From: a virus
Virus record (IMG/VR): IMGVR_UViG_3300028844_003918
Span: 1-37,268 of that record
Direction: 5' to 3' (one strand)
DNA length: 37,268 nt
Shown piece after piece: positions 8,940 to 36,260 of this stretch. The notes under the pieces were generated by a model, which worked only from the letters and a program-made list of their open reading frames with translations, ran no database searches and was not told where the DNA came from. The position numbers were made by a program, and so were the translations under genes. Positions within the stretch are counted from its first letter, which is position 1. The number at the start of each line of letters is the position of its first letter.

Positions 8940-9972
8940 ATTATTAGATAGATTAGAATTATTGTATTCTGACAACAGCAATCTATCTGATCTGCGTAGG
9001 CTTTATATCGATAATGATTTAAGTAGTTTGTTTAGATTAACCAACGGTGACGAAGAATTACGTAAAGCAGTTATTGAAAAAAATATGCATAGTATTTTTA
9101 GATTAGTAGACGGAAATATTTCAGGAGATATCGAAGATTTAAGAAAGGCAGTAGTTGAACAAAATTTACATAGTTTATTTAGATTAATACAAGGCAATGA
9201 TGATATTCGTAGTGCAGTAACAGAAGAAAACTTACACAGTATTTTTAGATTAGTTGACGACGAAGATTTAAGAAAACTTGTATTAGAAGACAACAATTGG
9301 AAACTTTGGCCTATACTTGATAGATATGTTGACACACAATTTACAGCAGCGTTCAAAAGTTTTTTTGTTAATAACACAGAAATATGGAATGATTGTTTCA
9401 GTAGAGGACAATTACAAAGTAAATTATGGTTAGTGCATGAACTTAAAAAATGTAATGTAGATCTCGGCACTGTGTTTTTGTGCGCAGGATGGTATGCTAC
9501 GCTTGCTACAATGTTATTTGAAAGTAACATTAAGTTAGATAATGTTAGATCTTTTGACGTTGATCCAAGTTGTGTAGATATAGCAGAAGTATTTAACAAG
9601 CCTTGGTTTGTAGATCAATGGCGATTTAAAAGTATTACACAAGATATAATGGATATTAACTACAACGAGCATACGTGGCAGTATTGGAGTAACGCAAACA
9701 ATAGAATGAGTTATCCAATTACAGATAGTCCTAATACTATTATAAACACAAGTTGCGAACATATTGAAAACTTTACAGAATGGTATGCTAAGATTCCAGA
9801 TGGTAAATTAGTTATATTACAAAGTAACAATTTCTTTGAAGTTGACGAACACGTGAATTGTAGTATTGATTTAGATGATTTTAGTAGACAAACACCATTA
9901 AATAGTGTATTATATAGTGATAGTCTTCAATTAGAGAAGTATACAAGGTACATGCGAATTGGAATTAAATAA
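8926..9972 (+). CDS. Repeat-bearing methyltransferase-like protein
   Basis: A 348-residue two-part protein. Residues 22-133 hold five copies of a roughly 20-residue unit with consensus [DE]LRKAVxExNLHSIFRLVxG. The C-terminal half has a Rossmann-like segment (GTVFLCAGWYATLATMLFE, then VRSFDVDPSCVDIAE) that resembles motifs I and II of class I SAM-dependent methyltransferases, and INTSCEHIENFTEWY near the expected motif IV. The motif I glycines are atypical, so activity is uncertain. The ATG at 8926 is preferred over the TTG at 8923 and follows AAAGGAA. The repeats could serve as a protein-binding or oligomerisation arm. It overlaps its upstream and downstream neighbours by 14 bases each. Confidence 0.65.
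   Translation: MQTFELLDRLELLYSDNSNLSDLRRLYIDNDLSSLFRLTNGDEELRKAVIEKNMHSIFRLVDGNISGDIEDLRKAVVEQNLHSLFRLIQGNDDIRSAVTEENLHSIFRLVDDEDLRKLVLEDNNWKLWPILDRYVDTQFTAAFKSFFVNNTEIWNDCFSRGQLQSKLWLVHELKKCNVDLGTVFLCAGWYATLATMLFESNIKLDNVRSFDVDPSCVDIAEVFNKPWFVDQWRFKSITQDIMDINYNEHTWQYWSNANNRMSYPITDSPNTIINTSCEHIENFTEWYAKIPDGKLVILQSNNFFEVDEHVNCSIDLDDFSRQTPLNSVLYSDSLQLEKYTRYMRIGIK
8989..9324 (+). repeat. Five degenerate in-frame repeats in methyltransferase-like gene
   Basis: Five units encode residues 22-41, 44-63, 71-90, 93-112 and 114-133 of the protein above. Start-to-start spacing is 22, 27, 22 and 21 codons. Units 2-4 are most alike (LRKAV.E.NLHSIFRLV); unit 1 and especially unit 5 have diverged. The DNA copies differ at many third positions, so this is an old expansion rather than a recent slippage event. 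Confidence 0.8.
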
Positions 9973-10192
9973 TTTATCAGTCAGAAGGTTACAGCAAGAA
10001 AGTGCTAGAGCACTAAGTACTATGCAAGCAACTAATAATAACATTTATCAGTTTAACAAACTAGCACACCATAATAGTCAAAACTGGTATAAAGCTGTAA
10101 TTGATTGGTATGTAGAGCAATATGGTGACTTGCCAAGCAAAGTTGGCCCAGGAAAAGAAGTAAAATTGGTATTAGATGAAACATCTGACTAA
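9959..10192 (+). CDS. Small hypothetical protein with TTG start
   Basis: A 77-residue open frame that exactly fills the space between the methyltransferase-like gene and the next radical SAM gene, overlapping both (14 and 17 bases). No ATG exists near the expected start; TTG at 9959 has AAGG 10 bases upstream. An internal ATG at 10022 would give a 56-residue product. The protein is polar and helical at its N-terminus (RRLQQESARALSTMQATNN), and its C-terminus (LPSKVGPGKEVKLVLDE) looks extended. No leader-peptide hallmark such as a GG cleavage site or a cysteine-rich core is present. Function unknown; its tight placement in the operon is the main argument that it is real. Confidence 0.55.
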   Translation: MELNNLSVRRLQQESARALSTMQATNNNIYQFNKLAHHNSQNWYKAVIDWYVEQYGDLPSKVGPGKEVKLVLDETSD

Positions 10193-11114
10193 CGACAGAC
10201 CAGATAGTATGCATGCTGAATGGGTAATAAGTAATGTGTGTAACTATACTTGTAACTATTGCGACCCAAAACTATACGGGGGCTCATCAGGCTGGCCTGA
10301 TTTACAAAAAAGTTTAGACTTTTGGCAGTACATACACACAGATGTTAACCCTAATGCTAAAATGTTAACACTTAGTGGCGGTGAGCCAACTATATGGCCA
10401 AAACTAAGTGAATTTTTTAATAGGTTAGATCCTAGTTACAAAAAAGCTATAGTTACAAACGGTAGTAGGACATTACGTTGGTGGCGCAAGTTTATTGATA
10501 ATACTCAAATGACACAAATTGCAATTAGTGTTCATCTTGAATTTGCAGATGTTAATCATATTAAAGAAGTTATTAAAATTATAGGACCTCATTGTAGAGT
10601 TACAGTCTTAATGATGTTAGACGAAAATTCAGTTACAAAAGGTCGACATTTTGCAGAAACTCTGTCTAATGAAGATTTATATTGTAAAATTGTAGTCAAA
10701 CCTATAACACGTAGGTGGAATGGTATTAACGAAACATGTACATATGATAACGAAGTATTAGATTGGATTAAAACTTTTGATTACGATAAAAATAGTCCTG
10801 CTATGAAAAATGAGAATCGTACAACAGCAGTTAACATAATTATCGACGGCGAAGAAAAACCTGTGTTTTATATGTATGAAATGATCTCAAAAAATATGCA
10901 TAAATTTAAAGGATGGCGCTGTCATGCAGGAACACACAGACTAGTTGTGTGGCACGATGGTAATGTGTATGGTGCACAGTGTACTACTGCTAAAAGAAAT
11001 AAATTAGGTAATATAGCCAACGGAAGGTTAGATAAAAAGATTGAACCATTAATTTGTGATACAGAATTCTGTGCTTGTGTTCCTGACATACGCATACCTA
11101 AGGAGATAGTATGA
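10176..11114 (+). CDS. Radical SAM protein with C-terminal cysteine module (B)
   Basis: A 312-residue radical SAM enzyme with the CNYTCNYC motif at residues 22-29 and LTLSGGEPTIW, followed by VTNGSRTLRWW. It belongs with the genes at 24414 and 25569, which share the CNxxCxYC start, GGEPT, the SRT/CSRNMRWF-type segment, and a C-terminal (G)WxCxAG plus a final cysteine cluster (CDTEFCACVPDIRIPK here) that probably binds an auxiliary iron-sulfur cluster in a SPASM-like fold. This is the shortest of the three and lacks their long charged insertions. Its start overlaps the small upstream gene by 17 bases, and its stop overlaps the following SGNH-like gene (ATGA). Substrate unknown. Confidence 0.85.
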   Translation: MKHLTNDRPDSMHAEWVISNVCNYTCNYCDPKLYGGSSGWPDLQKSLDFWQYIHTDVNPNAKMLTLSGGEPTIWPKLSEFFNRLDPSYKKAIVTNGSRTLRWWRKFIDNTQMTQIAISVHLEFADVNHIKEVIKIIGPHCRVTVLMMLDENSVTKGRHFAETLSNEDLYCKIVVKPITRRWNGINETCTYDNEVLDWIKTFDYDKNSPAMKNENRTTAVNIIIDGEEKPVFYMYEMISKNMHKFKGWRCHAGTHRLVVWHDGNVYGAQCTTAKRNKLGNIANGRLDKKIEPLICDTEFCACVPDIRIPKEIV

Positions 11115-12922: not shown

Positions 12923-13489
12923 ATGACATTTACAATATTGGAAAACTTTCCACAAGACTTATTAGACGAACTAAAGGCAATTTGGTATGAAGGTGATTGG
13001 AAACGCGAAATAGAAGCTAGTCCTGGTTCTATGTGGCACCATCATTTAAGAGCTAGTCATCCTATATTTGAAAGATTCCCAGAAGAAACCCGCACACTAG
13101 AATATTATAGTAATCCTCCACATTGTGGAAACGGTCCGCACTTAGATAGAGGCAGATGGAGTGCAATGAATATACCTATTGAAATGGATCACGAAAATAG
13201 TTACTTTTTAGCCGGCAAGACTCACTTATTAAAAGGATATACTAGAAAGCGTCATTTAGATCAATACAAAGACGGTCATAAAGTAAACAGTACAGGACCT
13301 ATTGGATTTTTTAAAGAAGAAGAAGATAAGTTTGATTATTATAACTTAGAAAAGCCTGTTCTGTTTAGTACAAAAACACCTCACGGATTTGCCAATAATA
13401 GTGATCGTCCTAGAGTATTGCTTAGTGCTACCTTTAATTTAACTTATGAACAAATGCTTAATATTTTGCCAGAGGAATGGTTTGCATAA
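12923..13489 (+). CDS. 2OG-Fe(II) oxygenase-like protein 1
   Basis: A 188-residue protein with the order of metal and 2-oxoglutarate ligands expected in the double-stranded beta-helix oxygenases: HLD in GPHLDRGRWSAMNIPIEM, then PHGFANNSDRPRVLLSATFN, which supplies the distal His and an Arg for 2-oxoglutarate. Such enzymes hydroxylate proteins, sugars, lipids or small molecules. The ATG at 12923 is chosen over an in-frame GTG at 12878, which would overlap the previous gene by 38 bases. No strong Shine-Dalgarno sequence is visible. The gene lies between two closely related SPASM radical SAM genes, so it may act on the same product. The fold is likely; the reaction is unknown. Confidence 0.7.
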   Translation: MTFTILENFPQDLLDELKAIWYEGDWKREIEASPGSMWHHHLRASHPIFERFPEETRTLEYYSNPPHCGNGPHLDRGRWSAMNIPIEMDHENSYFLAGKTHLLKGYTRKRHLDQYKDGHKVNSTGPIGFFKEEEDKFDYYNLEKPVLFSTKTPHGFANNSDRPRVLLSATFNLTYEQMLNILPEEWFA

Positions 13490-14487
13490 TGTTTTATTCG
13501 TTGCCTTTAAGTCACATACATATAGAACTAACAACTAAGTGTAATGCTGCATGTCCGATGTGTATGAGAAACTTAAATGGTGACGTAGATCATCCTAATC
13601 TAATTAAAACAGACTTTGATGTAAACTGGTTTGATAATATAGATTTACCTGCAAACAAACTTACGCTATGTGGTAACTACGGTGATCCGTGTGTACATCC
13701 TGACCTGCATCTTGTTGTTGAAAGATGGATACAGCAATACAACAAGCCTATTCTAATGATGACCAATGGCGGTGCTAGAAAGCCTGATTACTGGCGTTCT
13801 CTAGCAGAAACAGCAGGTGACAAGATGCATGTAGTATTTGGTATAGATGGTCTTGCAGACACAAATCATCTTTATCGTAGACATGTGCAATGGGACAAAC
13901 TAATAGAAAATGCACAAGCATATATAGACGCCGGCGGCAGTGCAACTTGGAAGTATATTATATTTGAACATAACAAGCATCAAGTTGAAAAAGCCGCAGA
14001 ACTTGCAAAAAAGCTAGGTTTCAAAAAATTTGAGAAAATTAAAACAAATAGATTTGAAAAAGATTACTTGCCTGTTGTTGACAAAAACAATAAAGAAATA
14101 TACAGGCTATACGAAGCAAAAGTTGAAGAAGATGGATATACGTCAAAAAATCCTAATCGTATACAAACTACAAAAGAATGGACAGGCGAGATAGCTTGTT
14201 ATGCAAAGAAAGAAAGCAGTGTATACATAGCTGCTGACGGCAGAGTGTATCCGTGTTGCAACACTGGATATCACTACAATACTGATAGATCGTTGAATAA
14301 AGAAATACATGAACTACAACAGCAAGTGGGTGCTCCTAATATTTCAAAAGAAAAGTTAAGTGATGTAGTGCAAAGTGATTTCTTTGCAACAGTAGAAGAT
14401 CGCTGGAGTTCTCAACCCCTTAAAAAATGCAAGAAAACCTGTGGAGTGTTGCGTGATAATTTACACAAGGTAGAAATTTTTGAGTAA
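13489..14487 (+). CDS. SPASM radical SAM protein, GNxGDP type (D)
   Basis: A 332-residue paralogue of the genes at 11848 and 19794. CNAACPMC is at residues 18-25, CGNYGDP at 61-67, FGIDGLADTNHLYR at 117-130 and FEHNKHQ at 159-165. SPASM cysteines are C237, C256/C257, C314 and C318. It is shorter than its paralogues because the lysine-rich linker between core and SPASM domain is reduced. The start at 13489 (TAATG junction, AGAGGA upstream) is preferred over the ATG at 13477. The product ends the first promoter-proximal run of overlapping genes; the next gene follows a 23-base gap that contains a late promoter. Confidence 0.88.
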   Translation: MFYSLPLSHIHIELTTKCNAACPMCMRNLNGDVDHPNLIKTDFDVNWFDNIDLPANKLTLCGNYGDPCVHPDLHLVVERWIQQYNKPILMMTNGGARKPDYWRSLAETAGDKMHVVFGIDGLADTNHLYRRHVQWDKLIENAQAYIDAGGSATWKYIIFEHNKHQVEKAAELAKKLGFKKFEKIKTNRFEKDYLPVVDKNNKEIYRLYEAKVEEDGYTSKNPNRIQTTKEWTGEIACYAKKESSVYIAADGRVYPCCNTGYHYNTDRSLNKEIHELQQQVGAPNISKEKLSDVVQSDFFATVEDRWSSQPLKKCKKTCGVLRDNLHKVEIFE

Positions 14488-14510: not shown

Positions 14511-15920
14511 ATGAGCAATAAAACATTACCATCAGAGACATTTTGTGCATTACCGTGGATGCACCTCAGCAGTAGACCCGACGGAAAAATGCGTACATGT
14601 TGCACATCTAATGCAAGTAGTGTACAAGATCCGGATTCAAATAAAAAAGTCGGCGGCGGCGAAGTTGGCGTAGTAAAAAATGATGACGGCGTTCCAGCTA
14701 ACTTTAATCATACTACGTTGGAAGAAGCATGGAATAGTGGTTATATGCGTAATGTTCGTAAGATGATGCTGCGCGGCGAAAAACCTGCTAGTTGTTTAAA
14801 GTGTTACAAAGAAGAGGAACAAGGACATCTAAGTAAACGTAACTGGGAAACAGAATACTGGGGCAATAGATTTAATATAGATGAACTAGTTGCTGAAACA
14901 AAAGAAGATGGAAGCATACCTCCTAAGATTAGGTATATTGATTTACGTTTAGGTAGTAAGTGTCAACTTGCTTGCGTAATGTGTTCACCACATGATAGTA
15001 CAGGATGGATCAAAGACTGGAAAGCTATTAACCCTAAAATTAAAAACGAAAAACTTGCTAACACTAGTCAGTGGCATAATAAAGGACGCAATGACGGAGC
15101 AAGTTATAATTGGCATAAAAACAATCCTCGCTTTTGGGCAGATTTAATGGATCAAATTCCTCACATGTATCAATTATATTTTGCTGGCGGCGAAAGTTTA
15201 ATTATTGAGGAACATTATGAATTGCTTGAAGAATGTATTAAACGTGGTCATGCTAAAAATATGGAACTACGTTACAATTCAAATGCTGTAGAATGGCGTG
15301 AAGATTTGCCAGAATTATGGAGTCACTTTAAACGAGTAAGATTTCATTACAGCATTGACGCTTACGGCGAACAAAACGATTATATACGTTATCCTAGTAC
15401 TTGGGAACATCAAGAACGTGTGTTCCATATGCTAGATAATACAGCACCACAAGTAGAAGTTACTACAGCAACTACTATTATGGCACTTAATGTTGCATAC
15501 TTACCTGAGTTTGTAAAATGGAAAGTACAACAGGGCTTTAAAAAATTAAACAAATGGCCATTAGGAGCTGGAGGCATAAACATGCATTTTGCATATTGGC
15601 CACCACAGTTAAATGTAAAAGTGCTACCTGAACATATCAAAAAAGAAATTACAGACAAGTACGAAAATGAATTTTTTCCTTGGATGGAAGAAAATTGGCA
15701 ACTATTTACAGGTGTAGAAGAAGCCGGTATTACTAAAGAGCAATGGTTAAATGCGCCATATGGAATGAAACGCTTTAAAGGTATTATTAGGTTTATGAAT
15801 AGTGAAGACTGGAGTGCTAGGCTTCCGGAAACAAAAGAATACTTAAATTTAGTAAACGAACGTAGAGGCTGGACAGAAAGGTTTCCAGAAGTATTTCCTA
15901 TACTAAAGGATATAGTATGA
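14511..15920 (+). CDS. Radical SAM protein with N-terminal twitch-like module (E)
   Basis: A 469-residue enzyme, the longest of its group. The N-terminal module has C12 (in FCALPW), C30/C31, C95 and C98 (CLKC), a pattern like an SPASM/twitch auxiliary-cluster domain but placed before the radical SAM core. The catalytic motif CQLACVMC is at residues 151-158. The SAM-contact motif reads GGES rather than GGEP. LSSRPDGKMRTCC resembles the strand-turn of SPASM domains. It has a late promoter directly before its ATG and no Shine-Dalgarno sequence. Its stop overlaps the start of the next paralogue (ATGA). The two adjacent genes share the layout and may function as a pair. Confidence 0.87.
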   Translation: MSNKTLPSETFCALPWMHLSSRPDGKMRTCCTSNASSVQDPDSNKKVGGGEVGVVKNDDGVPANFNHTTLEEAWNSGYMRNVRKMMLRGEKPASCLKCYKEEEQGHLSKRNWETEYWGNRFNIDELVAETKEDGSIPPKIRYIDLRLGSKCQLACVMCSPHDSTGWIKDWKAINPKIKNEKLANTSQWHNKGRNDGASYNWHKNNPRFWADLMDQIPHMYQLYFAGGESLIIEEHYELLEECIKRGHAKNMELRYNSNAVEWREDLPELWSHFKRVRFHYSIDAYGEQNDYIRYPSTWEHQERVFHMLDNTAPQVEVTTATTIMALNVAYLPEFVKWKVQQGFKKLNKWPLGAGGINMHFAYWPPQLNVKVLPEHIKKEITDKYENEFFPWMEENWQLFTGVEEAGITKEQWLNAPYGMKRFKGIIRFMNSEDWSARLPETKEYLNLVNERRGWTERFPEVFPILKDIV

Positions 15921-17239
15921 ATGTAAAAGATGAAAATTTTTGCATTGTTCCTTTTGTACAGTTAAACACTAGAGGCAAAGGAGATGCTAGAGTATGTTGT
16001 AGTATTGAAGGTATTGACTTTGGCATTCCAAAAGAAATGACTATTGACGAAATAACTTCTGATAATTATTCTAGTGACACTGATGTATATAATTTAAGTA
16101 AAGATAAAATAGAAGACTTATGGAATGGTCCTTTTATGAAAGACTTCCGTATGAAAATGCTTAACGGCGAAAAACTTAGTAACTGTGAATTTTGCTACAG
16201 AATGGAAAACAGTGGATTTGGAAGTAAGCGTACTGGCAAGAATAAAAGGTTTTTAGAACGTGTAAAACCGCATTTACAAAAGTATTATGATGCAAATGGT
16301 TATGTTGATGTTATGCCACAATGGTGGGAAGTAAGACTTAGCACTAAATGTAACCTAAGTTGTGTTATGTGTTCTCCTAACCTTAGTAGTATGATGTACA
16401 AAGAATACAACAAATGGGGCAATAAAATAACTGGACAAATGCAAGGTAGTTTAGACATTGCAAAACGTTCAGGTGAAGAATATCTAAGTCAAAGTAAGTT
16501 TTTTAAAGAACAAATAATGACAAATCTTGAACATGTATTATACATGGAATTTAGAGGTGGAGAAGTATTTGCAGATCGACACAGCATTGACTTTATTTGG
16601 AGTATAGCTAAAACAGACTATGCAAAAAATATTAGTTTAGATATAAGCACTAATGCAACATTGATAACAGATGAAATAGTAGATTTATTAAATCATTTCA
16701 AAGGCGGATTATTGCGTTTTAGTATTGATGCTGGACAAGAAAAAGATGAACTAATACGTTATCACACCAATTGGGATAGCGTCATAACTAGCATTGAAAA
16801 TTCAAACAACTTACATAGCGAATGGGAAATGGTAACACAAACTTGTTTACAAGCTCTTAATTGTATAGGACTAGTACCTATGCTAGAATATTTTGATGAT
16901 ATGTGTAATCGTACTAATAATGAACGCTTTCATTTAGGATTTACAAGTGTACGTGGTAAAGAATGGATGCGTCATGAACTTGTACCTATAGAATATAGAC
17001 AAAAAGAAATTGCTGATCTTGAAAAGTTTATAAAAAATAGTTGGTTATGTAATACTAGTAAACACAAAAAAAGAGAAACTAAAACAATACAAGGGTTAAT
17101 GAAAGCACTTTCTACAGAAACACGTATTAATGATGACTTAAATAAGAAAGCCAAAGAGTATTATCTAAAATTAAACGAACTACGGAATGTAGATTATTGG
17201 AAAACATTCCCGCACTTGGAGTACTTAAATGGATTTTAG
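15917..17239 (+). CDS. Radical SAM protein with N-terminal twitch-like module (F)
   Basis: A 440-residue paralogue of the previous gene. N-terminal cysteines are C9 (FCIVPF), C27/C28, C90 and C93; the catalytic CNLSCVMC spans residues 145-152. The SAM-contact motif is GGEV (FRGGEVFAD), a departure from GGEP. The C-terminus (WKTFPHLEYLNGF) keeps the short aromatic end pattern of the group. AAAGGA lies before the ATG, which overlaps the upstream stop by 4 bases. The downstream methyltransferase-like gene overlaps it by 11 bases. The radical SAM fold is clear; the substrate is not. Confidence 0.87.
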   Translation: MNVKDENFCIVPFVQLNTRGKGDARVCCSIEGIDFGIPKEMTIDEITSDNYSSDTDVYNLSKDKIEDLWNGPFMKDFRMKMLNGEKLSNCEFCYRMENSGFGSKRTGKNKRFLERVKPHLQKYYDANGYVDVMPQWWEVRLSTKCNLSCVMCSPNLSSMMYKEYNKWGNKITGQMQGSLDIAKRSGEEYLSQSKFFKEQIMTNLEHVLYMEFRGGEVFADRHSIDFIWSIAKTDYAKNISLDISTNATLITDEIVDLLNHFKGGLLRFSIDAGQEKDELIRYHTNWDSVITSIENSNNLHSEWEMVTQTCLQALNCIGLVPMLEYFDDMCNRTNNERFHLGFTSVRGKEWMRHELVPIEYRQKEIADLEKFIKNSWLCNTSKHKKRETKTIQGLMKALSTETRINDDLNKKAKEYYLKLNELRNVDYWKTFPHLEYLNGF

Positions 17240-17879
17240 TGATTGGAAAATACATAAGTTTGACGACACATTTAATCAAATAGATGTAAAAAATAAAACT
17301 GTTGCAGATCTATGTTGTTTACATGGTAGAGCTGGTGCAAGAAGTTTAGAAAGAGGCGCAAAATACATAAAATTTATTGATGCTATAGATCCTATAGACG
17401 AACTGAAAACATATTTTACAATCTATGATAAAGATAAATGGCAGCATATAAAACTTGATCTTAGTAACGAAGCTCAAGACTTAATTAAACACTTACAAGA
17501 TGTTGATATATGTTTTTATTACGGACATTTATATCATGCTACAAATCATTTTGACATTTTAAAATTTTTATCTTTAAGTAATATTAAAAATTTAATTATA
17601 GACACTTCATGGCCGTTATGGTTAGGTGATTATGATATGTGGAATGACAAAAACGGAATAATGATACATGATTTTGAAACTACGGATAACCATATGCATG
17701 CCTTCAGTAATGAATATGATAAGTTATATATAGGAATACCAAACAAGCAATGGATTAACTCGGTGGTTATTGATCAGTTTAATTGGAATGTTATGTCAGA
17801 AGATGAAATGATAATAGATTTTAAAAATCGACAACAAGTGAGATATATGATTAGACTTGCAAGGAGAAACAATGAATAA
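17229..17879 (+). CDS. Class I methyltransferase-like protein
   Basis: A 216-residue protein with a Rossmann-type order: VADLCCLHGRAGARSLERGA (about residues 25-44) in the place of motif I, an acidic strand end in FIDAIDP, and DICFYYGHLYHATNHFDILKF (about 94-114), which resembles the segment after motif IV in small-molecule and tRNA uridine methyltransferases of the CmoB-like kind. The glycine-rich loop is altered (CCLHGRAG rather than GxGxG). It could methylate a small molecule or sugar, or be a non-catalytic relative. It lies between two N-twitch-type radical SAM genes and overlaps both by 8-11 bases, implying co-translation. Confidence 0.6.
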   Translation: MDFSDWKIHKFDDTFNQIDVKNKTVADLCCLHGRAGARSLERGAKYIKFIDAIDPIDELKTYFTIYDKDKWQHIKLDLSNEAQDLIKHLQDVDICFYYGHLYHATNHFDILKFLSLSNIKNLIIDTSWPLWLGDYDMWNDKNGIMIHDFETTDNHMHAFSNEYDKLYIGIPNKQWINSVVIDQFNWNVMSEDEMIIDFKNRQQVRYMIRLARRNNE

Positions 17880-19242
17880 AACATTATGCCCTGTGCCATG
17901 GATGAGCCAAAGTCTTAGAGCGAACGGCGACATCCGTGTATGTTGTCAGGCACAGCATGGCCCAACAGGCGGAATACTGAGAGACGAAGACGGAAAAGAG
18001 TACAATGCTCGTACAGCTGATCTTAAAAAAGTACGCAATAGTGAATTGTCGAAAGAAATACGTAAGTATATGATGGAAGGCAAATGGCATCCTGAGTGTG
18101 TTCGTTGCCAAACAGAAATGGAATCAGGCATGAATGCTCGTATTGATTATGAAAATAAAATTTGGATCGAACGTGGTGAATTTAATTGGGAAGATTTATT
18201 ATCTAAAACAGCAGCCGACGGCACAATAGAAGAAGATGAAATTAATTGTAGTTTTTATGATGTACGTTTTGGCAACTTATGTAATTTAAAATGTAGAATG
18301 TGCGGTCCTACTGATAGTAGTATGTGGTACGAGGATCAGGTTAAACTATGGGGAGATAGTTATAAAGACAGCCATGGCAAAGTCAAACTTATTAAAAATG
18401 ACAAAGGCAAGTATGAGCCTGAAACAAATTTATATGATTGGCACGAAAGCGACCATTACTGGGTACAAATGGATAATAACATCGATCAGATACGAAAGCT
18501 ATACATCGTCGGCGGCGAGCCGCTAATGATCGACAGGCATTACGAATTCTTACAAAAATGTGTTGATCAAGACTGTGCAAAAAATATTATTGTAGAATAC
18601 AATACTAATATGACAAACATACCGCAACGTGCTTGGGACATTTGGAAGCATTTTAAACAAGTTAATTTAGGTGCAAGTGTTGACGGCGTAGGCGATTTGC
18701 AATACTATATGCGTCCTCCTAGTAGATTTGATAAAATTCATGAAAACCTACTTAAAGTAAGTCAGGCAGAAGGTAACTTTAAAGTATGGATTGCAGCAAC
18801 TATTAATGTATTCAATGTTTTACATTTTCCAGAATTTATGGAATGGTTATTACTTAATAAAATACCTCGTGTAAATGACGATGAATGGCGCCCTATAATT
18901 ACACCACATCCGTTACATGGCCCAAAATTCTATAATATTAGAATGTTACCAGGTTGGGCAAAAGATCATATCAAACAAAAGTACGAAGATTACAAACCGA
19001 GACTGTTAAAAATAATTGATGAAAGTGATTTTACAGAAGAACGTAAAAAAGCTAGTAGGAGAGATGCAGTAGGATTACTAGATCAATATGTAGACTACAT
19101 GTATGCTAAAGATTTTAGTGAAGCACTACCGATGTTTTGGAAGGCTACTAGAAAATTAGATAAAATTCGCGGACATAGTATTGAAAAGTCTATTCCAGAG
19201 TTATACGAACTTCTAAAGGATACCGAAGTTAATGAGCTATAA
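17872..19242 (+). CDS. Radical SAM protein with N-terminal twitch-like module (G)
   Basis: A 456-residue enzyme. The N-terminal module has C6 (LCPVPW), C24/C25, C76 and C79 (CVRC); the catalytic CNLKCRMC is at residues 137-144 and GGEP lies in IVGGEPLMI. The start at 17872 has AAGGAG 6 bases upstream and is preferred over the ATG at 17857. The middle of the protein (YDVRFGNLCN, SVDGVGDLQYYMR, IAATINVFNVLHFPEF) parallels positions in the 14511 product. The enclosing operon order is methyltransferase, radical SAM, jelly-roll protein, SPASM radical SAM, all overlapping by about 8-11 bases. Substrate unknown. Confidence 0.87.
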   Translation: MNKTLCPVPWMSQSLRANGDIRVCCQAQHGPTGGILRDEDGKEYNARTADLKKVRNSELSKEIRKYMMEGKWHPECVRCQTEMESGMNARIDYENKIWIERGEFNWEDLLSKTAADGTIEEDEINCSFYDVRFGNLCNLKCRMCGPTDSSMWYEDQVKLWGDSYKDSHGKVKLIKNDKGKYEPETNLYDWHESDHYWVQMDNNIDQIRKLYIVGGEPLMIDRHYEFLQKCVDQDCAKNIIVEYNTNMTNIPQRAWDIWKHFKQVNLGASVDGVGDLQYYMRPPSRFDKIHENLLKVSQAEGNFKVWIAATINVFNVLHFPEFMEWLLLNKIPRVNDDEWRPIITPHPLHGPKFYNIRMLPGWAKDHIKQKYEDYKPRLLKIIDESDFTEERKKASRRDAVGLLDQYVDYMYAKDFSEALPMFWKATRKLDKIRGHSIEKSIPELYELLKDTEVNEL

Positions 19243-19804
19243 GTGGCATGAAAGTTGTTCACCAGGATGGAAACAGCAAGATAATACTTTTGAATTTTAT
19301 TTAACAAAAGGAATTGCAGGAAACTGTCCTAGTGACAACACACCTATAAAAGGAAAGTTCGAGTTTAAAGAAAGACAAGAACTAATGAGTGATATGTTAG
19401 ACCCCGGCACATATGTTTGGTCTGCAGATGTTGAAACTATAAGTGACAAATTAGTACATGCTGAATATTTTAGTTTGTTTCAAATACACGACAAGCGTCC
19501 AAACGGTAGACCTCCTCATGGTATACAAGTAAGAAATGGAGACATTTTTTTAATACAAGAAGATGATGCTACGGATTTATATGTATCAAAATATAAAGGA
19601 CAACTAAGTATTGCAACAAAAGTGCATGTAAAAGGAAAAAGTGTGTCTGTTGAATATATTATTGACGGCGTTAATGTAGCAAAACTGAAATCAAAAGTAA
19701 TAGGAAAACCTTTTATAAAGTTTGGAGCATATAGGTGGAATGCTGTATGTGATGTAAAGCAGATTTATAGGAATTTAAGATTTGAAAGAACAAATGTTTC
19801 TTAA
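19232..19804 (+). CDS. Jelly-roll (concanavalin-like) glycan-binding or lyase-like protein
   Basis: A 190-residue protein that appears to be an all-beta jelly roll. FSLFQIHDKRP and PPHGIQVRNGDIFL, followed near the C-terminus by IKFGAYRWN, resemble conserved strands of polysaccharide lyase families with a concanavalin-like fold (heparin-lyase-like and PL7/PL20-like proteins). Catalytic residues cannot be confirmed by eye. No signal peptide is evident, so it would act in the cytoplasm or as a virion-associated part. The ATG at 19232 overlaps the preceding radical SAM gene by 11 bases. Either glycan binding or cleavage fits the glycan-rich neighbourhood; neither is proven. Confidence 0.5.
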   Translation: MSYKWHESCSPGWKQQDNTFEFYLTKGIAGNCPSDNTPIKGKFEFKERQELMSDMLDPGTYVWSADVETISDKLVHAEYFSLFQIHDKRPNGRPPHGIQVRNGDIFLIQEDDATDLYVSKYKGQLSIATKVHVKGKSVSVEYIIDGVNVAKLKSKVIGKPFIKFGAYRWNAVCDVKQIYRNLRFERTNVS

Positions 19805-20852
19805 TATTGATCAAATAAAAACAATACAAATGGATCACACTAGTAGGTGTCAGCTTGCTTGTCCTCAGTGTGCTAGATTCCACGGTAGTCAAACTGAGCT
19901 AAATCCATATATGCCTATAGACGATACAACAGTAGACGACTATAAAATTATACTCGAACCGTTTGAACGCGATAGTGTAAAATTATTCCACTGTGGAAAC
20001 TTTGGCGATAGTTTAGCAAGTCCTACCTTTGATGCATCTTTAGACTATTGTATAGATCAAGGTGTTAAAGAATTTAAAATGGCTGTTAACGGTAGTGCAA
20101 GGAGTAAAGAATGGTGGCGTGATCTTGCACAAAAAAGTAACCGCATAGTTGTAAACTTTAGTATAGACGGATTAGAAGACACTAATCACTTGTATAGAGT
20201 AAACAGTAACTTTAAAAAGATAATGGAAAATGCAAAGGCATTTATTGACGCAGGCGGAAATGCACGTTGGTACTTTATTGAATTTGAACATAACTATCAT
20301 CAAATAGACGAAGCAAAACGCATAGCAAGCGACATGGGATTTAAGCAATTTAATGCAAAGTACACAGGAAGATTTGCAGAACAACAGCAAAACAAAGTAG
20401 AAACTAAAAAAGGCACTTTAGTAGAAGATAAAAAAGACAACCACAACCAAAAAGACATGCAGGAAATAAAGCAAACCTATGATAGCTTTGAGCAGTATAT
20501 TGAACAAACACCTATAACTTGCAAATATAAACAAGAGAACAGTATGTTTATCGATATGCAAATGAAGTTGTGGCCTTGTACTTGGATGGGAGCACCTGCA
20601 TATTTTGGTCCTAATAATCCACAACGTAAGAGCTTTGATGCAATATATAACTTATATGGCGAAGATTTTAACGACATGCGTAAGTATGGATGGGACATAT
20701 TACAACATGAGTTCTTTGCAAAATATTTAGATAGATCCTGGAACGACCAAGACGACAAGTTCAAACGAATATATACTTGTGGAAGGACTTGCGGAGATAA
20801 ATTTGAGTTTAGCAGCGGCTATGGTAAAAACACAAAGAGAGAAAATTTATGA
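19794..20852 (+). CDS. SPASM radical SAM protein, GNxGD type (H)
   Basis: A 352-residue third member of the group at 11848 and 13489. CQLACPQC is at residues 19-26; the GGEP position reads CGNFGDS; the SIDGLEDTNHLYR and FEHNYHQ blocks are retained. A lysine/glutamine-rich linker (around residues 200-225) separates the core from the SPASM region, where TCKYKQENSMFI, LWPCTWMG and CGRTCGDKFEF supply cysteines; one of the paired cysteines found in its relatives is missing (PCT rather than PCC). The start at 19794 (ATG) is chosen over a TTG at 19782. The stop overlaps the next start (ATGA). Confidence 0.87.
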   Translation: MFLNIDQIKTIQMDHTSRCQLACPQCARFHGSQTELNPYMPIDDTTVDDYKIILEPFERDSVKLFHCGNFGDSLASPTFDASLDYCIDQGVKEFKMAVNGSARSKEWWRDLAQKSNRIVVNFSIDGLEDTNHLYRVNSNFKKIMENAKAFIDAGGNARWYFIEFEHNYHQIDEAKRIASDMGFKQFNAKYTGRFAEQQQNKVETKKGTLVEDKKDNHNQKDMQEIKQTYDSFEQYIEQTPITCKYKQENSMFIDMQMKLWPCTWMGAPAYFGPNNPQRKSFDAIYNLYGEDFNDMRKYGWDILQHEFFAKYLDRSWNDQDDKFKRIYTCGRTCGDKFEFSSGYGKNTKRENL

Positions 20853-21520
20853 TAATTGAAAACAGCCAGGACATAATTACTTTTGAGTTACCTAAAGAAT
20901 ATACAAATATTGGTATCAAATTGTCCGGCGGAGCCGATAGTGCAATAGTATTATACATGCTATGCAAATATCTTAAAGAAACAAATAGAAGTTGTGAAAT
21001 TATTCCAATGACAGTGTGTCATGCAGGGAAAGCATTCCAACTACAGTTTGCTACAAAAGTTATATTTTTTATGCAAGATACATTTGGAACTAAGTTTGGT
21101 AAACATTATACTGGAGTAAATTATCATAGTAAATCATATACAACAGTTCAAGATACGGTTGTCCAAAATTGTTATAAGAATAATTTTATAGATTGTCATT
21201 TTAGTGGTATAACAGCTAATCCTTCAAAAGAAGTAATGGACAGTTTTAACACTGCTGGCCCTGCTGATGACAGAAACAGATTAACAGATAGACGCCCTAC
21301 GCAACGAGGAAAATTTTACGTTCCTCTTATTAACATAGATAAGCAAGGTGTAAGGGAGTTATACGAAAAATACAATCTAATGGACACACTTTTTCCGCTA
21401 ACTAGAAGTTGTGAAACATTTACTGATGACTTTAGTAAACATTGCGGTGAGTACAAAGATGAAAAAGATGTATGTTGGTTTTGTAAAGAAAGACATTGGG
21501 GATTTGGCAGATATGTATAA
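20849..21520 (+). CDS. PP-loop ATPase related to QueC
   Basis: A 223-residue N-type ATP pyrophosphatase. The PP-loop reads SGGADS at residues 26-31 after a short strand. The C-terminus carries four cysteines, C188, C199, C209 and C212, in SCE, HCG and CWFCKERHWGF, which parallels the zinc-binding end of 7-cyano-7-deazaguanine synthase, but the second-to-third spacing is 9 residues rather than about 2. QueC converts carboxy-deazaguanine to preQ0; phage relatives can serve DNA modification. Other PP-loop enzymes activate carbonyls in sugars or proteins, so the substrate here is open. No QueD, QueE or FolE gene is seen nearby. It overlaps both neighbours. Confidence 0.7.
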   Translation: MIIENSQDIITFELPKEYTNIGIKLSGGADSAIVLYMLCKYLKETNRSCEIIPMTVCHAGKAFQLQFATKVIFFMQDTFGTKFGKHYTGVNYHSKSYTTVQDTVVQNCYKNNFIDCHFSGITANPSKEVMDSFNTAGPADDRNRLTDRRPTQRGKFYVPLINIDKQGVRELYEKYNLMDTLFPLTRSCETFTDDFSKHCGEYKDEKDVCWFCKERHWGFGRYV

Positions 21521-22706
21521 TACAATGTGTCCTTTGATTTATAATGGAATAGCAACTGATCCTAGTGGCGGTGTTCGGCCGTGTTGTATTTTTGATCAGA
21601 AATATAATTTTCGTGGCGATGTAAAGGACTATAAATTAAGTAAAGAATTTCAAGAAATTGAATCAGCATTTTTAGCTGGCGGGTACCACCCCGGGTGTCA
21701 TCATTGCGAACGATTGGATAACAACGGAGCCAGTAGTAAGCGTACTAGAGAAATAAGAAATTATTTACACAAATACAAAAAAGACAAAGTTGACTGGGAA
21801 CATATAAAAACAGTAGGTTATGATTTAATTGATTTACGTCTAAGTAATAAATGTAATTTAAGTTGTATTACTTGCAATCCAAAAAGCAGCAGTATGATAT
21901 ACGACGAAACTAAAAAGAATAAAGATTCTACAATGTTTCATTACGCAAATATTTACGAGTTAACTGGCCATAAAGATTTAACTAATCCTTATGACGACGA
22001 CAATATTGATCAGTTATTAGATTGTATTAACGAAACTAGTAGACTTTATTTTACTGGCGGCGAACCTAGCATAGTTAAAGGTGTATTTAAAGTTTTACAG
22101 CATTGTATTGATAATGGGTTAAACGAACACGTATATGTAGAATTTAACAGCAACTTTCAAACAGAAAATCCTAAGTTTATAAATTTACTATCCTATTTTC
22201 CAAAAGGATTAATGATGCCAAGTATAGACGTAGTTGGTCCAAGAGCAAAATATGTAAGATATCCAAGTAATTGGAATCAAATAGATAAAAATATAAAAAG
22301 ATTTAAACAAGCGTGTCCTGATTGGAAGTTTAACTTAGCGCCTACAATTAGTATGCTTACAATTTTTTATCTTGACGAAGTTGCTGAATATTGCGAAACT
22401 AACAATTTTAAATTAAATTTGTCTAACCAATTATGGGGACCAAAATATTTTCAAACTAGTATTATGTCAGACAAATGGAAAGAGATTGCTCTAAAAAAAT
22501 TAGAAAAATTAAAAGATTACCGATGCTTTGGTAACAACTATCAAATATACTACGATACTATTTCTAATTATATTTACAGTGAAAAACAGGATTTAGATAG
22601 GCTAGAGGCCTGTAGAACAAACTTAAATAGGATTGATGATATAAGAGGCATATCATATAAGGACCATTTACCTATACTAAAGGAGATATTTGACGAATGC
22701 TTGTAG
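21513..22706 (+). CDS. Radical SAM protein with N-terminal twitch-like module (I)
   Basis: A 397-residue enzyme. N-terminal cysteines C6 (MCPLIY), C24/C25, C62 and C65 (CHHC) precede the catalytic CNLSCITC at residues 114-121 and TGGEPSI. The start at 21513 is chosen because the longer open frame (from 21411) lies inside the PP-loop gene and has no support; the module pattern begins within the first six residues, as in its paralogues. This gives an 8-base overlap with the PP-loop gene. It is slightly shorter than most of its group in the region between the CC pair and the CxxC. The downstream SDR gene overlaps its end by 10 bases. Confidence 0.85.
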   Translation: MYNTMCPLIYNGIATDPSGGVRPCCIFDQKYNFRGDVKDYKLSKEFQEIESAFLAGGYHPGCHHCERLDNNGASSKRTREIRNYLHKYKKDKVDWEHIKTVGYDLIDLRLSNKCNLSCITCNPKSSSMIYDETKKNKDSTMFHYANIYELTGHKDLTNPYDDDNIDQLLDCINETSRLYFTGGEPSIVKGVFKVLQHCIDNGLNEHVYVEFNSNFQTENPKFINLLSYFPKGLMMPSIDVVGPRAKYVRYPSNWNQIDKNIKRFKQACPDWKFNLAPTISMLTIFYLDEVAEYCETNNFKLNLSNQLWGPKYFQTSIMSDKWKEIALKKLEKLKDYRCFGNNYQIYYDTISNYIYSEKQDLDRLEACRTNLNRIDDIRGISYKDHLPILKEIFDECL

Positions 22707-23251
22707 TAGGAAATAAAGATTACGGATTAGCAAAGAGTGTAGCAGCATTATATCCAGACGCTCATTATATGTCTAGAACAACTGGTTATAACTTAGGAAA
22801 AAGAGATGTTAGAGAACTAGTAGCAAAAGAAAGTCTTGATCATAATGTTGTAATGTTAATTAGTGCGCTAGGTGATTTTAGTCAAGTTTTACTTGCTGAA
22901 GCTATAGCAAAAGAATGGGTTAAAAATAATCATAACGGATATTTGTTAGCAATAGGTTCTAGTGCCGACACCGGAGTTAAAGGTTCAAAATGGATTTACC
23001 CTGTTGAGAAAAAAGCATTACGCAATTATATGCGTCAACTTAGCCAAGGTGTGAGCAGTGATAATCCTCCTGCATTTAAAACAACTTACTTATCTCCTGG
23101 TAACTTACATACTCCTAGACAAGATGAAAAGATGCCTGATACACTAAAACTTGATACAGATTACGTATCTGGATTATTGAAATGGCTAATAGAACAGCCG
23201 CACGATATAAACATAAGTGAACTTTGTTTAGATCGTATTCAAAAATTATAG
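22697..23251 (+). CDS. Short-chain dehydrogenase/reductase-like protein
   Basis: A 184-residue compact SDR-like protein. The N-terminal strand and loop (MLVVGNKDYGLAKSVAALYP) replace the classical TGxxxGIG. Further on, LAIGSSAD holds the expected catalytic serine region, and YPVEKKALRNYMRQL contains YxxxK, the SDR active-site pair. LSPGNLHTPRQ matches the PGxxxT segment after the substrate loop. At 184 residues it is short for the family (usually about 240), so part of the coenzyme or substrate region may be reduced. It may reduce or oxidise a sugar or small intermediate. AAGGAG precedes the ATG. Its 3' end overlaps the opposite-strand gene by 13 bases. Confidence 0.7.
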   Translation: MLVVGNKDYGLAKSVAALYPDAHYMSRTTGYNLGKRDVRELVAKESLDHNVVMLISALGDFSQVLLAEAIAKEWVKNNHNGYLLAIGSSADTGVKGSKWIYPVEKKALRNYMRQLSQGVSSDNPPAFKTTYLSPGNLHTPRQDEKMPDTLKLDTDYVSGLLKWLIEQPHDINISELCLDRIQKL

Positions 23252-24375
23252 TAGGGACAGGCTGTAGTAAAGTCTTGTGATCTAGACTTATCCCAAAACT
23301 GTGTATGCGATTTAAATTTAGGTAGTAAATCTGTTTTATCTTCACTATCCATGTAAGTAACAATATAATCACAAAACTTTTTGATTTCGTCATTCTTGTA
23401 TGAATATTGTGCATACTTGTTACGGATGATGTCTTTTTGATTTTCTGGTAGCACAGTAACACTTAAATATAGCGGATATGTTAGATGGGTAGGATTTAGT
23501 CTTACTTTTCTGTCATCTAACCATTCAAGTGTTTCTGGCAAGTGATAAGCATTATATATTGTTATAGTTGGTCTTGCTAATACTGTCATACTTACTTCAT
23601 CGGCTACCTCTACATACTTTTCTATATTAGTAAGTGCTTGGCTGTGGTTAGTTAAGTGTCTCTGATATTCATTTTCTTCTTTTACAATGCTGTCTAAACT
23701 TACAGCAAGCTCTATGTGATCAAACTCTTTCCAAATATCGACTATTTTTTGTTTTGGAAACACAGTACAGTTGGTACTATAATTTAGCCGTATATTTTTT
23801 GCATAACCTTTTTCAACAGCATATTCTAAGAGTGTCCAATGGTCGGGAATAATTAAAGGTTCACCACCTGTAAATTTTATATATTTCATATCTTTAAGAT
23901 GCGGGTATATACTGTCTAGATTTGCTTTAGTGCGTTTTGTTTTACTAAATGTCTTACCGTGATATTCCTGCTCTTCGTCAAACAGTTTGTGGCTATATCG
24001 ACTGTCGCACATTCTACACATAAGATTACAGTCGTTACTTAGGCTAAGTTCTAAGTACTCTAGTTTATTATCGTTTGTGTCAACATGTTTCTCGCCTACT
24101 TTAGTGTGTTCATTAAGACGCATACGTAGACTTTTCTTATTGTTATCTTCTTCTTCATAACATCGTTTACAACCTTCTAAACGTTCACCGCGAAGTACAC
24201 GCTTACGCAAATCATTTTGAAAGTCACTGTCAAATATATCTTGAATACTATGGTTATCTAGTGTATGATTTTTAGGACGATGGTCTTCTAAGAATCTACA
24301 ACAGGGTTTTACTCTACCAGTACCGTCTACCATCTGGTGATTCCATAATACTGAACAAAATGTTTTGCTTCTCAT
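23239..24375 (-). CDS. Radical SAM protein with N-terminal twitch-like module (J)
   Basis: A 378-residue enzyme and the only one of this group on the minus strand, set against the operon. N-terminal cysteines C7 (FCSVLW), C25/C26, C69 and C72 (CKRC) precede the catalytic CNLMCRMC at residues 116-123, then FTGGEPLII. A late promoter octamer lies 5 bases before its ATG, and no Shine-Dalgarno sequence is present. It diverges from the radical SAM gene at 24414 across a 38-base gap and converges with the SDR gene, with a 13-base 3' overlap. Its minus-strand position suggests independent regulation from the plus-strand run. Confidence 0.87.
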   Translation of the reverse strand: MRSKTFCSVLWNHQMVDGTGRVKPCCRFLEDHRPKNHTLDNHSIQDIFDSDFQNDLRKRVLRGERLEGCKRCYEEEDNNKKSLRMRLNEHTKVGEKHVDTNDNKLEYLELSLSNDCNLMCRMCDSRYSHKLFDEEQEYHGKTFSKTKRTKANLDSIYPHLKDMKYIKFTGGEPLIIPDHWTLLEYAVEKGYAKNIRLNYSTNCTVFPKQKIVDIWKEFDHIELAVSLDSIVKEENEYQRHLTNHSQALTNIEKYVEVADEVSMTVLARPTITIYNAYHLPETLEWLDDRKVRLNPTHLTYPLYLSVTVLPENQKDIIRNKYAQYSYKNDEIKKFCDYIVTYMDSEDKTDLLPKFKSHTQFWDKSRSQDFTTACPYYNF

Positions 24376-29129: not shown

Positions 29130-29777
29130 ACGCTGTATGCGGGCTTTTTGCGTGTCTGCATAGGTTTTATTATACTCCGCTATATTGATACTCGGAAGGC
29201 TAAAAGGCGCTTGTATGACGCTCTTAAGCTGTGTAAAGCATACATTTTGCCAGCATTTAGGGTCTTTGTTAACACCTATATAATCGCCTTTATCGTTGTG
29301 TTGTCTGCAAGTATTACACATATCTTGATGTAAAATCCACTGTCTATCCTTGCCCAAATAAGCAACTAAATCCTGCATACTACGCCGGCGCATTAATAGC
29401 TCTATGCTAATAAAAGCATAATCGTATCCTAAATCAATAGCTCGATTTACTTCATATGGAATAAACCAATCTTCGCTCCATCTAGCTGTTCTGCTAGATC
29501 CTTTGTTTCTATAATCAGGATGGTAGTATGTGCGGGTACTGCACCTTGCAATATTTTTTGGATATGTGCCGTTGTTCCACAATCCACTAAATGCAACTAT
29601 TTTATCATCATCATATATTATTTCAAAACTATCAAATTTGTCTACAGTGTTTTGTAGATTATAATAGTTTTTTGCATTACGATGATTATCGTTTGCTTCA
29701 ATCCATTTACATAGTTTGGCTAAATTTTCTATATGCTTTGCAAAATCTTCTGCTTGTAATATATCAACAATTTCCAT
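29121..29777 (-). CDS. GNAT acetyltransferase-like protein
   Basis: A 218-residue protein with a GNAT-like centre: IIYDDDKIVAFSGLW, then CSTRTYYHPDYRNKGSSRTARW, in which the YRNKGS segment resembles the acetyl-CoA pyrophosphate loop (Q/RxxGxG/A). The following helix and ISIELLMRRRS fit the later strands. The start at 29777 is chosen over that at 29849 because the extra 24 residues lie within the coding end of the upstream gene, which it overlaps by 14 bases. Transcription is probably coupled with the dehydrogenase gene before it. It may acetylate an amino sugar, but no substrate is visible. Its 3' end converges on the hydrolase gene. Confidence 0.6.
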   Translation of the reverse strand: MEIVDILQAEDFAKHIENLAKLCKWIEANDNHRNAKNYYNLQNTVDKFDSFEIIYDDDKIVAFSGLWNNGTYPKNIARCSTRTYYHPDYRNKGSSRTARWSEDWFIPYEVNRAIDLGYDYAFISIELLMRRRSMQDLVAYLGKDRQWILHQDMCNTCRQHNDKGDYIGVNKDPKCWQNVCFTQLKSVIQAPFSLPSINIAEYNKTYADTQKARIQRLR

Positions 29778-30825
29778 AATTAGTCCATGGGTTAAAATTA
29801 TAAACACCTTGCATAGGCTTGTCATGTTTATGAACTTGCACATAAACACTAGGATTTTCTTTTACAACCCCTCCACCGTGTTGTTTTATATAGTGCTGTA
29901 CGAGTAAACTAAATGAACCGTCTGTATATTCTACATCAGGTTTATAAGTATCACTGCTGAACATGATTTTATTACCGTGTTTTAAAATCTCTATTGCCAT
30001 ATTTTCTGCTTGCTTCTCTCTTGCTATAGTTATAGCACCAAATAAATCGTATTGCAAGTTTAATCTTTCTGCTAGATTACTTAATGCAATGTTATCTCTA
30101 GGATGACACGGTCCCCCATCACCCATACCTGCTTCCATATATGCTTTACTTACAATACGCTGACTACTGTTTGCAAGTGCCTCTGTCACTATATCTACAT
30201 CCATGTTTCCTAGCTTTACTGCAACGTCTTGTATCATATTAACAATAGATAGTTTTGCACTGATAAATGTGTTGTAAAAAACTTTGATACTTTCAGCTTC
30301 TTCGTATGTGCCGTAAACATATCTTGCTTGTGTACAAATAGTTTCGTAAAACTTTTTTAGTTGGCTTTTCCCACCAATTATTATCATTTCTGGATTTAAA
30401 AAGTCTTCTTTCACAGACCCCATTGCAATTAGATAAGGATTGTAAACAAAATTTGTGTTAGTGCATAACTTTGCAAGGCGCCGACAAGTGCCAGGCAGCA
30501 CTGTACTAATAAGCACTAGTTCTTGATTTTTGTTCATGTGCTTGTTGCATTCTATTAGTACTTCTTCAACAATACTGTAGTTAAAATCTTTTGTAGGCAA
30601 ATGGCTTATAGGTTGGCTACCGTCATATTCTTTAGAGTGTGGTGTAGGAACTGCAACAAATACTATTTTTCGGCCTAGTACTGCACCTTGTATACTAGGA
30701 AATTGATAAACACCTTTTGTTTTTATTTTCTTTATATCGTACGCAGTCACATCATGACCCTTTTCTGCAATAGCTTCTGCACAAGGCAGTCCTAATTTTC
30801 CTAATCCTATAAATGCTATATCCAT
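29764..30825 (-). CDS. UDP-glucose 6-dehydrogenase family protein
   Basis: A 353-residue nucleotide-sugar dehydrogenase. The NAD-binding loop GLGKLG is at residues 7-12 with Asp30 after the second strand, VAVPTP at 58-62, and a central KVFYNTFISAKLS segment (181-193). The catalytic cysteine lies in GMGDGGPCHPRDN at Cys240; the family's usual lysine after the cysteine (CxPKD) is arginine here (Arg243). The length is slightly below the usual 390-450 residues, with the loss in the C-terminal UDP-sugar domain. Expected reaction: oxidation of UDP-glucose or a similar nucleotide sugar to a uronate with two NAD+. The Lys-to-Arg change may affect rate or specificity. Confidence 0.82.
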   Translation of the reverse strand: MDIAFIGLGKLGLPCAEAIAEKGHDVTAYDIKKIKTKGVYQFPSIQGAVLGRKIVFVAVPTPHSKEYDGSQPISHLPTKDFNYSIVEEVLIECNKHMNKNQELVLISTVLPGTCRRLAKLCTNTNFVYNPYLIAMGSVKEDFLNPEMIIIGGKSQLKKFYETICTQARYVYGTYEEAESIKVFYNTFISAKLSIVNMIQDVAVKLGNMDVDIVTEALANSSQRIVSKAYMEAGMGDGGPCHPRDNIALSNLAERLNLQYDLFGAITIAREKQAENMAIEILKHGNKIMFSSDTYKPDVEYTDGSFSLLVQHYIKQHGGGVVKENPSVYVQVHKHDKPMQGVYNFNPWTNYGNC

Positions 30826-35974: not shown

Positions 35975-36260
35975 TATATTTCAAATATGGACACGCCAAT
36001 GTGAAATAAGAAAGCTCTTTTGGATCTTCAAATCCTATTTTTAGTACTTTTGCAATAGATTTTGTTTCTTTTGTTTGTACTGTAAGAGCTATTCCTATGT
36101 AAAATCGACCTTTTAAATTGTCTTGTATCCAATTAGTCATGGGAAGTTCTAAATTGTATTTTAATGGTATTTGAATATATTCAAAATACGGAAGAGGATA
36201 TTTTGCTTTCCGTATTTCAAAAAAGTTTAACGCATTAGGATCTTTAGTTTTAAGCAACAT
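35970..36260 (-). CDS. Conserved small phage core protein
   Basis: A 96-residue protein with FFEIRKAKYPLPYFEYIQIPLKYNLE and an ending DPKELSYFTLACPYLKY that I recognise as a conserved phrase in marine T4-like phages. The start at 36260 is preferred over 36269 because GAGGAAA lies just before it. It overlaps the upstream VWA gene by 11 bases. Beta-rich with few charged clusters, it has no known activity. Confidence 0.75.
   Translation of the reverse strand: MLLKTKDPNALNFFEIRKAKYPLPYFEYIQIPLKYNLELPMTNWIQDNLKGRFYIGIALTVQTKETKSIAKVLKIGFEDPKELSYFTLACPYLKYN

Follow-up and report, generated by a model that had tools for sequence, protein, structure and literature searches.

Radical SAM enzymes with a predicted N-terminal twitch domain in a tail-fibre-flanked gene island of uncultured marine jumbo phages

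Six radical SAM enzymes with a permuted twitch domain

Six genes of a 37,268-base stretch of viral DNA (IMG/VR record IMGVR_UViG_3300028844_003918; the whole stretch is called the window below) encode predicted radical S-adenosylmethionine (SAM) enzymes in which, judging from their sequences, a twitch domain has been circularly permuted to the N-terminus, ahead of the radical-SAM core. Four invariant cysteines of this N-terminal module correspond one for one to the ligands of the auxiliary [4Fe-4S] cluster of BtrN and are predicted to bind such a cluster, and the CxxxCxxC motif and GGE motif make up the SAM-cleaving site. The genes, named here by their lowest coordinate in the window and collectively as N-twitch genes, are listed below with two sub-features of the first; scores are for the NCBIfam family NF033640, and pLDDT is the predicted local distance difference test of AlphaFold2 models.

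14511..15920, + strand: N-twitch radical SAM enzyme A; 469 amino acids; GGES at residue 226; 422 bits; pLDDT 91.6
14544..14804, + strand: N-terminal twitch module of 14511; C12-x17-C30(C31)...C95-x2-C98; PF13186 (SPASM) at residues 12-99; profile match to the BtrN twitch
14961..14984, + strand: radical-SAM motif CQLACVMC of 14511; C151, C155, C158
15917..17239, + strand: N-twitch radical SAM enzyme B; 440 amino acids; GGEV; twitch cysteines 9, 27(28), 90, 93 (at 15941-16195); SPASM at residues 9-93; 277 bits
17872..19242, + strand: N-twitch radical SAM enzyme C; 456 amino acids; twitch cysteines 6, 24(25), 76, 79 (at 17887-18108); 365 bits
21513..22706, + strand: N-twitch radical SAM enzyme D; 397 amino acids; twitch cysteines 6, 24(25), 62, 65; 271 bits
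23239..24375, - strand: N-twitch radical SAM enzyme E; 378 amino acids; twitch cysteines 7, 25(26), 69, 72 (at 24160-24357); 318 bits; pLDDT 95.8
6938..8275, + strand: N-twitch radical SAM enzyme F, the most divergent; 445 amino acids; C21-x18-C40 (single cysteine), C82-x2-C85; 307 bits

A first-pass annotation of the window had described a SPASM-like cysteine module ahead of the radical-SAM core in these genes, and this was correct in substance: translation and a listing of cysteines confirmed C-x17/18-C(C)...C-x2-C inside the first 98 residues of all six proteins, followed by CxxxCxxC; PF13186 matches the N-terminus of four of them, and a profile of this region matches the twitch of BtrN. 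Its finer details required correction. The first cysteine, placed by that annotation 9 to 18 residues before a cysteine pair, is exactly 17 residues before it in five proteins and 18 before the single cysteine of 6938; the pair itself is present in the same five. The FCxxPW context that it gave is found in 14511 but not elsewhere, the other contexts being FCIVPF, LCPVPW, MCPLIY, FCSVLW and MCFAKW. The CxxC lies 37-64 residues after the first cysteine of the pair, and the complete pattern arises in no more than 1 of 20,000 shuffles for any of the six proteins.

Membership of the radical-SAM superfamily is indicated by CX3CX2C and GGE in each protein and by PF04055 matches in 6/6, four of them above cut-off. 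At the N-terminus (within residues 6-99), PF13186 matches four of the six, above its curated cut-off in 14511, 15917 and 23239 and below it in 17872. A profile of the whole family matched BtrN over positions 4-75 only (E 5.8e-7) and SkfB over positions 118-306, and a profile of the first ~110 residues had BtrN as its sole plausible match (E 5e-4), to the C-terminal twitch of that enzyme, with the four cysteines in register and a 'DiW...k...Rk...G' stretch in common. The AlphaFold models of 14511 and 23239 are confident, and their N-terminal modules have the order hairpin, helix, CxxC. Foldseek searches against the PDB returned low-TM, core-dominated matches (TM, template modelling score) as would be expected of a permuted domain, and therefore provide no test of the twitch.

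A twitch of the BtrN type has one cysteine before and one after a beta-hairpin and two after helix alpha2', binding one auxiliary cluster, and the seven-cysteine motif of SPASM domains is CX9-15GX4C-gap-CX2CX5CX3C-gap-C (PMC6231123). Judged by cysteines and modelled secondary structure, the six proteins have the four-cysteine arrangement of BtrN, but the module is N-terminal to the core in 6/6 rather than C-terminal. Assignment as a full SPASM domain was rejected, only the first half of the seven-cysteine motif being present with no further conserved cysteine. Because only four N-terminal cysteines are conserved, with no other column exceeding 30% cysteine in the alignment described below, one auxiliary cluster is predicted and the module is classed as a twitch.

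Conservation of the cysteines and of the GGE motif

N-twitch proteins were gathered from the 14511 and 23239 loci, reduced to 187 representatives of less than 85% identity, and aligned. C12 and C30 of 14511 are conserved in 185/187 (two gaps), and C95, C98, C151, C155, C158 and GGE in 187/187; the seven cysteines and GGE are invariant in sets A1 and A2 as well. The second cysteine of the pair, which 6938 lacks, is kept in only 157/187, so the first, which corresponds to that of GX4C, is the invariant member.

The GGES of 14511 and the GGEV of 15917, pointed out by the first-pass annotation as departures from GGEP, are real, and both are clade-wide substitutions, GGES being found in 24/32 of the 14511 clade and GGEV in 8/13 of the 15917 clade. 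(An earlier GGEV at residue 49 of 14511 lies outside the aligned catalytic motif.) Among the 187 representatives the fourth residue is P in 147, S in 24, V in 8 and A in 4. Departure from GGEP was considered as a possible mark of inactivity and rejected, since GGE is kept in all 187 and the residue after it differs from clade to clade.

The observation as a whole is thus partly confirmed, and its interpretation partly supported: the N-terminal SPASM-like module stands, but the implied novelty of the domain order does not, all six proteins falling within NF033640 (N_Twi_rSAM) at 271-422 bits against a cut-off of 170. No description of an N-terminal twitch was found in the literature searched. 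N-terminal auxiliary clusters are known in other classes of radical SAM enzymes, such as LipA and MiaB.

The phage lineage and its radical-SAM island

The window derives, as far as its portal-bearing relatives indicate, from an uncultured marine lineage of T4-superfamily jumbo phages. A T4-type portal is present on longer relatives, related records extend up to 330 kb, and the portal of one relative (G003) is nearest to those of Agrobacterium phage Atu_ph07, Sinorhizobium phage Phosso and Pseudomonas PA5oct-like jumbo phages (47-53%). At least 187 viral stretches encode relatives of the 14511 protein, with identities of 63-100% for the best 80; from an annotated phage collection that lacks this lineage, the protein retrieved only two Vibrio phages (21%). 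Across 17 related contigs there are 7-21 NF033640 matches per contig, counts that include a few of the weakest matches, below the family cut-off or confined to the core.

Genes resembling those of tail fibres or structural proteins occupy the left end of the window, tail-fibre-like repeats were seen by eye at 33351-34706, and between these flanks lie 13 radical-SAM matches. A tRNA search of the window found none. At 36250-37041 is a VWA-like, putative metallopeptidase protein (DUF2201 by Pfam), for which the PHROGs label of HNH endonuclease (phrog_1314) looks wrong. Other features of the island are as follows.

8268..8939, + strand: putative GT-A glycosyltransferase (DAD motif), an inferred assignment; syntenic core; 63 loci; one set A5 member weakly matches Glycos_transf_2 (E 0.02)
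8923..9972, + strand: putative methyltransferase; syntenic core; 68 loci; Pelagibacter phage Mosig has a 'putative methyltransferase' with 25% identity
9959..10192, + strand: 77-amino-acid cysteine-free protein; 64 loci, median identity 76%; single copy in 16/17 contigs
10176..11114, + strand: further radical SAM enzyme; 312 amino acids; PF04055
11848..12915, + strand: radical SAM partner without the N-terminal module; 355 amino acids; PF04055; 82 loci, median identity 69%; lies shortly upstream of the 14511 orthologue in the majority of relatives
13477..14487, + strand: radical SAM enzyme with a conventional C-terminal SPASM (residues 244-322); PF13186 and PF04055
19797..20852, + strand: further radical SAM enzyme without the N-terminal module; PF04055 at 29.3 bits, borderline
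24414-25538 and 25569-26690, + strand: two further radical SAM enzymes; PF04055 and NCBIfam matches
29764..30825, - strand: UDP-glucose/GDP-mannose dehydrogenase; PF03721 and PF00984
31844..33322, - strand: radical SAM enzyme of B12-binding type; PF04055; the top NCBIfam matches, none of which reaches its cut-off, are to B12-binding radical SAM families

The gene order 8268, 8923, 9959, (10176), 11848, 14511 is repeated in dozens of loci, and the set of N-twitch genes around it varies. Between the window and a close relative (L001), the proteins of 14511, 15917, 17872 and 23239 are 98-99% identical; 21513 is represented by an allele of 61% identity, and the genes neighbouring it are 93-98% identical. 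L001 also has one extra N-twitch gene inserted and lacks the methyltransferase-like gene 17229. In G003 the island adjoins very long structural genes and holds a UDP-sugar dehydrogenase, a DegT aminotransferase and an NDP-sugar (nucleoside diphosphate sugar) epimerase. An aspartyl/asparaginyl hydroxylase-like (2-oxoglutarate oxygenase-like) gene is also part of the island.

Within the 9959 protein, an ATNNNI.QFNK.AHHNS.NWY stretch is nearly invariant. No family or meaningful structure match was found for this protein, its matches to OR366 and OR497, which are designed helical proteins, being rejected as short and due to chance, and profiles of 8268, 8923 and 9959 returned nothing usable from the PDB and Pfam. 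The 6027/8268 glycosyltransferase-like protein occurs inside open reading frames of 836-910 amino acids, apparently fused to neighbouring core genes (L007:718-3228, L010:5073-7805, G003:64616-67189). At 20849-21520 of the window is a QueC/TilS-like ATP-pyrophosphatase (weak matches), relatives of which repeatedly adjoin radical-SAM genes in other phages.

N-twitch genes in cellular genomes

Cellular genomes were also searched for N-twitch genes, which proved to be rare there. In a sample of Pseudomonadota, strong matches were found in 3/399 genomes, one of them the Rickettsiales metagenome-assembled genome (MAG) described below, in which the match lies on a phage-like contig. None was gained from 78 more genomes of one class and one (G763) from 385 genomes of another, and a plasmid search with 17872 found no match. 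A scan of genome contigs with set A3 yielded no sufficiently conserved stretch, and a single-protein scan yielded one phage-like contig, binned in a Rickettsiales MAG. Two contigs of the Rickettsiales MAG MED657 (L088, L115) are phage-like and carry N-twitch genes; L115 also encodes a CTP_transf_3 (CMP-sugar-type) cytidylyltransferase and a mannose-6-phosphate isomerase cupin.

Glycosyltransferase and NDP-sugar genes accompany the N-twitch genes in each of the three loci that are not from phages; the cysteine layouts of these loci are identical, and their host genomes may be incomplete or contaminated. In L110, a cluster of rhamnose/O-antigen type, four consecutive N-twitch genes are accompanied by RmlD, RmlC, an ABC-2 permease, a WbsX glycosyltransferase and a TylF methyltransferase. 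A family 2 glycosyltransferase (GT2) is found in both other loci, in L111 with an NDP-sugar epimerase and in L113 with an epimerase and a methyltransferase. One of the four L110 genes (L110:8582-11143, - strand) encodes a single chain of 854 amino acids in which an O-antigen-export ATPase of the ABC transporter type, with a Wzt C-terminal domain, is fused to a complete N-twitch enzyme; the chain combines ABC_tran, Wzt_C, SPASM and Radical_SAM domains, with SPASM again ahead of the radical-SAM core.

Predicted function

With confidence little better than even, we favour a role for the N-twitch enzymes in twitch-type C-H oxidation or tailoring of surface glycans or their precursors. Cleavage of SAM would yield a 5'-deoxyadenosyl radical, which would abstract hydrogen at a C-H bond of the substrate. 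This substrate would be a sugar, nucleotide-sugar or glycan, as the gene neighbourhoods suggest. The auxiliary cluster may then accept a second electron, making the overall reaction a two-electron oxidation like that proposed for BtrN, or it may steer the radical in some other way; its full ligation by four cysteines suggests the former, as has been argued for BtrN. The phage enzymes would constitute a swappable set within a tail-fibre-flanked island that also has glycosyltransferase-like, UDP-sugar dehydrogenase, methyltransferase-like and 2-oxoglutarate oxygenase-like genes. Their target may be host lipopolysaccharide (LPS) or capsule during infection, or glycans of the virion, with a possible effect on receptor recognition and superinfection. 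The swapping of alleles seen against L001 counts in favour of this reading, and the pelagimyophage islands described below are a precedent.

Several points weigh against this assignment. No substrate or activity for any NF033640 member was found in the literature searched, and the cellular support consists of three loci only. Among the phage stretches read, none was recognised as encoding a polysaccharide exporter. The phage core cluster includes a conserved small protein, and twitch and SPASM enzymes modify peptides too.

The last two points bear on the main rival to glycan tailoring, which we consider improbable: that the radical-SAM set, above all 11848/14511, consists of peptide or protein maturases, which would work alongside the glycosyltransferase-like and methyltransferase-like proteins encoded nearby to modify the 9959 protein or proteins of the tail fibres. 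The strong conservation of 9959, its single copy in nearly every contig and its position close upstream of 11848/14511 count in favour of this rival, searches with the core by sequence and fold retrieve the peptide maturases SkfB, CteB and SuiB, and the aspartyl/asparaginyl hydroxylase-like gene is nearby. However, there is one small gene to 7-21 N-twitch enzymes, and 9959 is conserved throughout rather than divided into a leader and a variable core. RiPP maturases have a precursor peptide and usually an RRE in or next to the enzyme; here 9959 is a candidate partner, and no RRE-type family match was found. The cellular N-twitch genes sit in glycan clusters, where nothing resembling this small gene was seen next to them.

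Less probable still, and in our opinion unlikely, is that these are small-molecule or cofactor enzymes similar to BtrN, SpeY, MoaA or viperin, whose C-H oxidations would yield a diffusible metabolite or nucleotide analogue for host takeover or competition between phages. Fold and profile matches do include BtrN, SpeY, MoaA, viperin and BlsE, but those other than BtrN reflect the common radical-SAM core, the genomic context indicates glycans, and hypervariable swapping of alleles suits recognition at a surface better than production of a fixed metabolite. A chance arrangement of cysteines, or an unrelated metal-binding module without a cluster, may be dismissed as extremely improbable in view of cysteine invariance in 185-187 of the 187 relatives, the register with the BtrN ligands and the outcome of shuffling.

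A more speculative reading, which we consider unlikely, is that the conserved core (8268, 8923, 9959, 11848/14511) and up to about 20 swappable permuted-twitch enzymes constitute a radical assembly line for a heavily modified glycan or glycopeptide of the phage or host surface. To our knowledge, radical assembly-line chemistry of this kind has not been described for any virus. The Wzt fusion and the three polysaccharide-type loci give NF033640, a family without a substrate in the literature searched, a testable assignment, and the abundance of N-twitch enzymes on each contig of a single uncultured marine jumbo-phage lineage suggests radical remodelling of surface glycans by phages.

Comparison with known systems

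Within NF033640, annotated as twitch domain-containing radical SAM protein, the domain order is the same, the match is full-length (approximately positions 1-398) and there is no architectural difference. The present analysis adds to that family the density of these genes in a marine jumbo-phage lineage, the swapping of alleles, the Wzt fusion and the finding that cellular copies sit in a polysaccharide context.

The twitch dehydrogenases BtrN and SpeY, which oxidise an aminocyclitol or sugar alcohol, resemble the phage proteins in having a four-cysteine twitch, CX3CX2C and a single auxiliary cluster, which in the phage proteins is predicted; however, the twitch of BtrN is C-terminal and that of the phage proteins N-terminal, and the sequences are very distant. 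The SPASM enzymes PqqE, anSME, CteB and SuiB have in common with them the radical-SAM core and CX9-15GX4C followed by CX2C, but the phage proteins lack the CX5CX3C-gap-C half and have the reverse domain order.

Among phages, the model of 23239 has full-length fold matches to many deposited proteins of uncultured phages (TM about 0.7-0.85), and also matches proteins of Vibrio phages phi-pp2 and KVP40, where relatives are annotated as moaA/nifB/pqqE. The MoaA/NifB/PqqE-family proteins of KVP40 and its relatives match over the full length of the fold (TM 0.61-0.72), and the cysteine layout in Vibrio phage K566, which is related to KVP40, is the same as that of the window. The KVP40 group differs in its sequence identity of about 19-28%, fewer copies and a different phage lineage.

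The pelagimyophages have a tail-fibre-flanked, hypervariable host recognition cluster with LPS-type glycosyltransferases, in which near relatives differ by radical-SAM cassettes (PMC7029224). The island of the window is likewise flanked by tail-fibre-like genes and carries glycosyltransferase-like genes and radical-SAM cassettes, but by portal its relatives are nearer to Atu_ph07/PA5oct-like jumbo phages, and they have many more radical-SAM genes.

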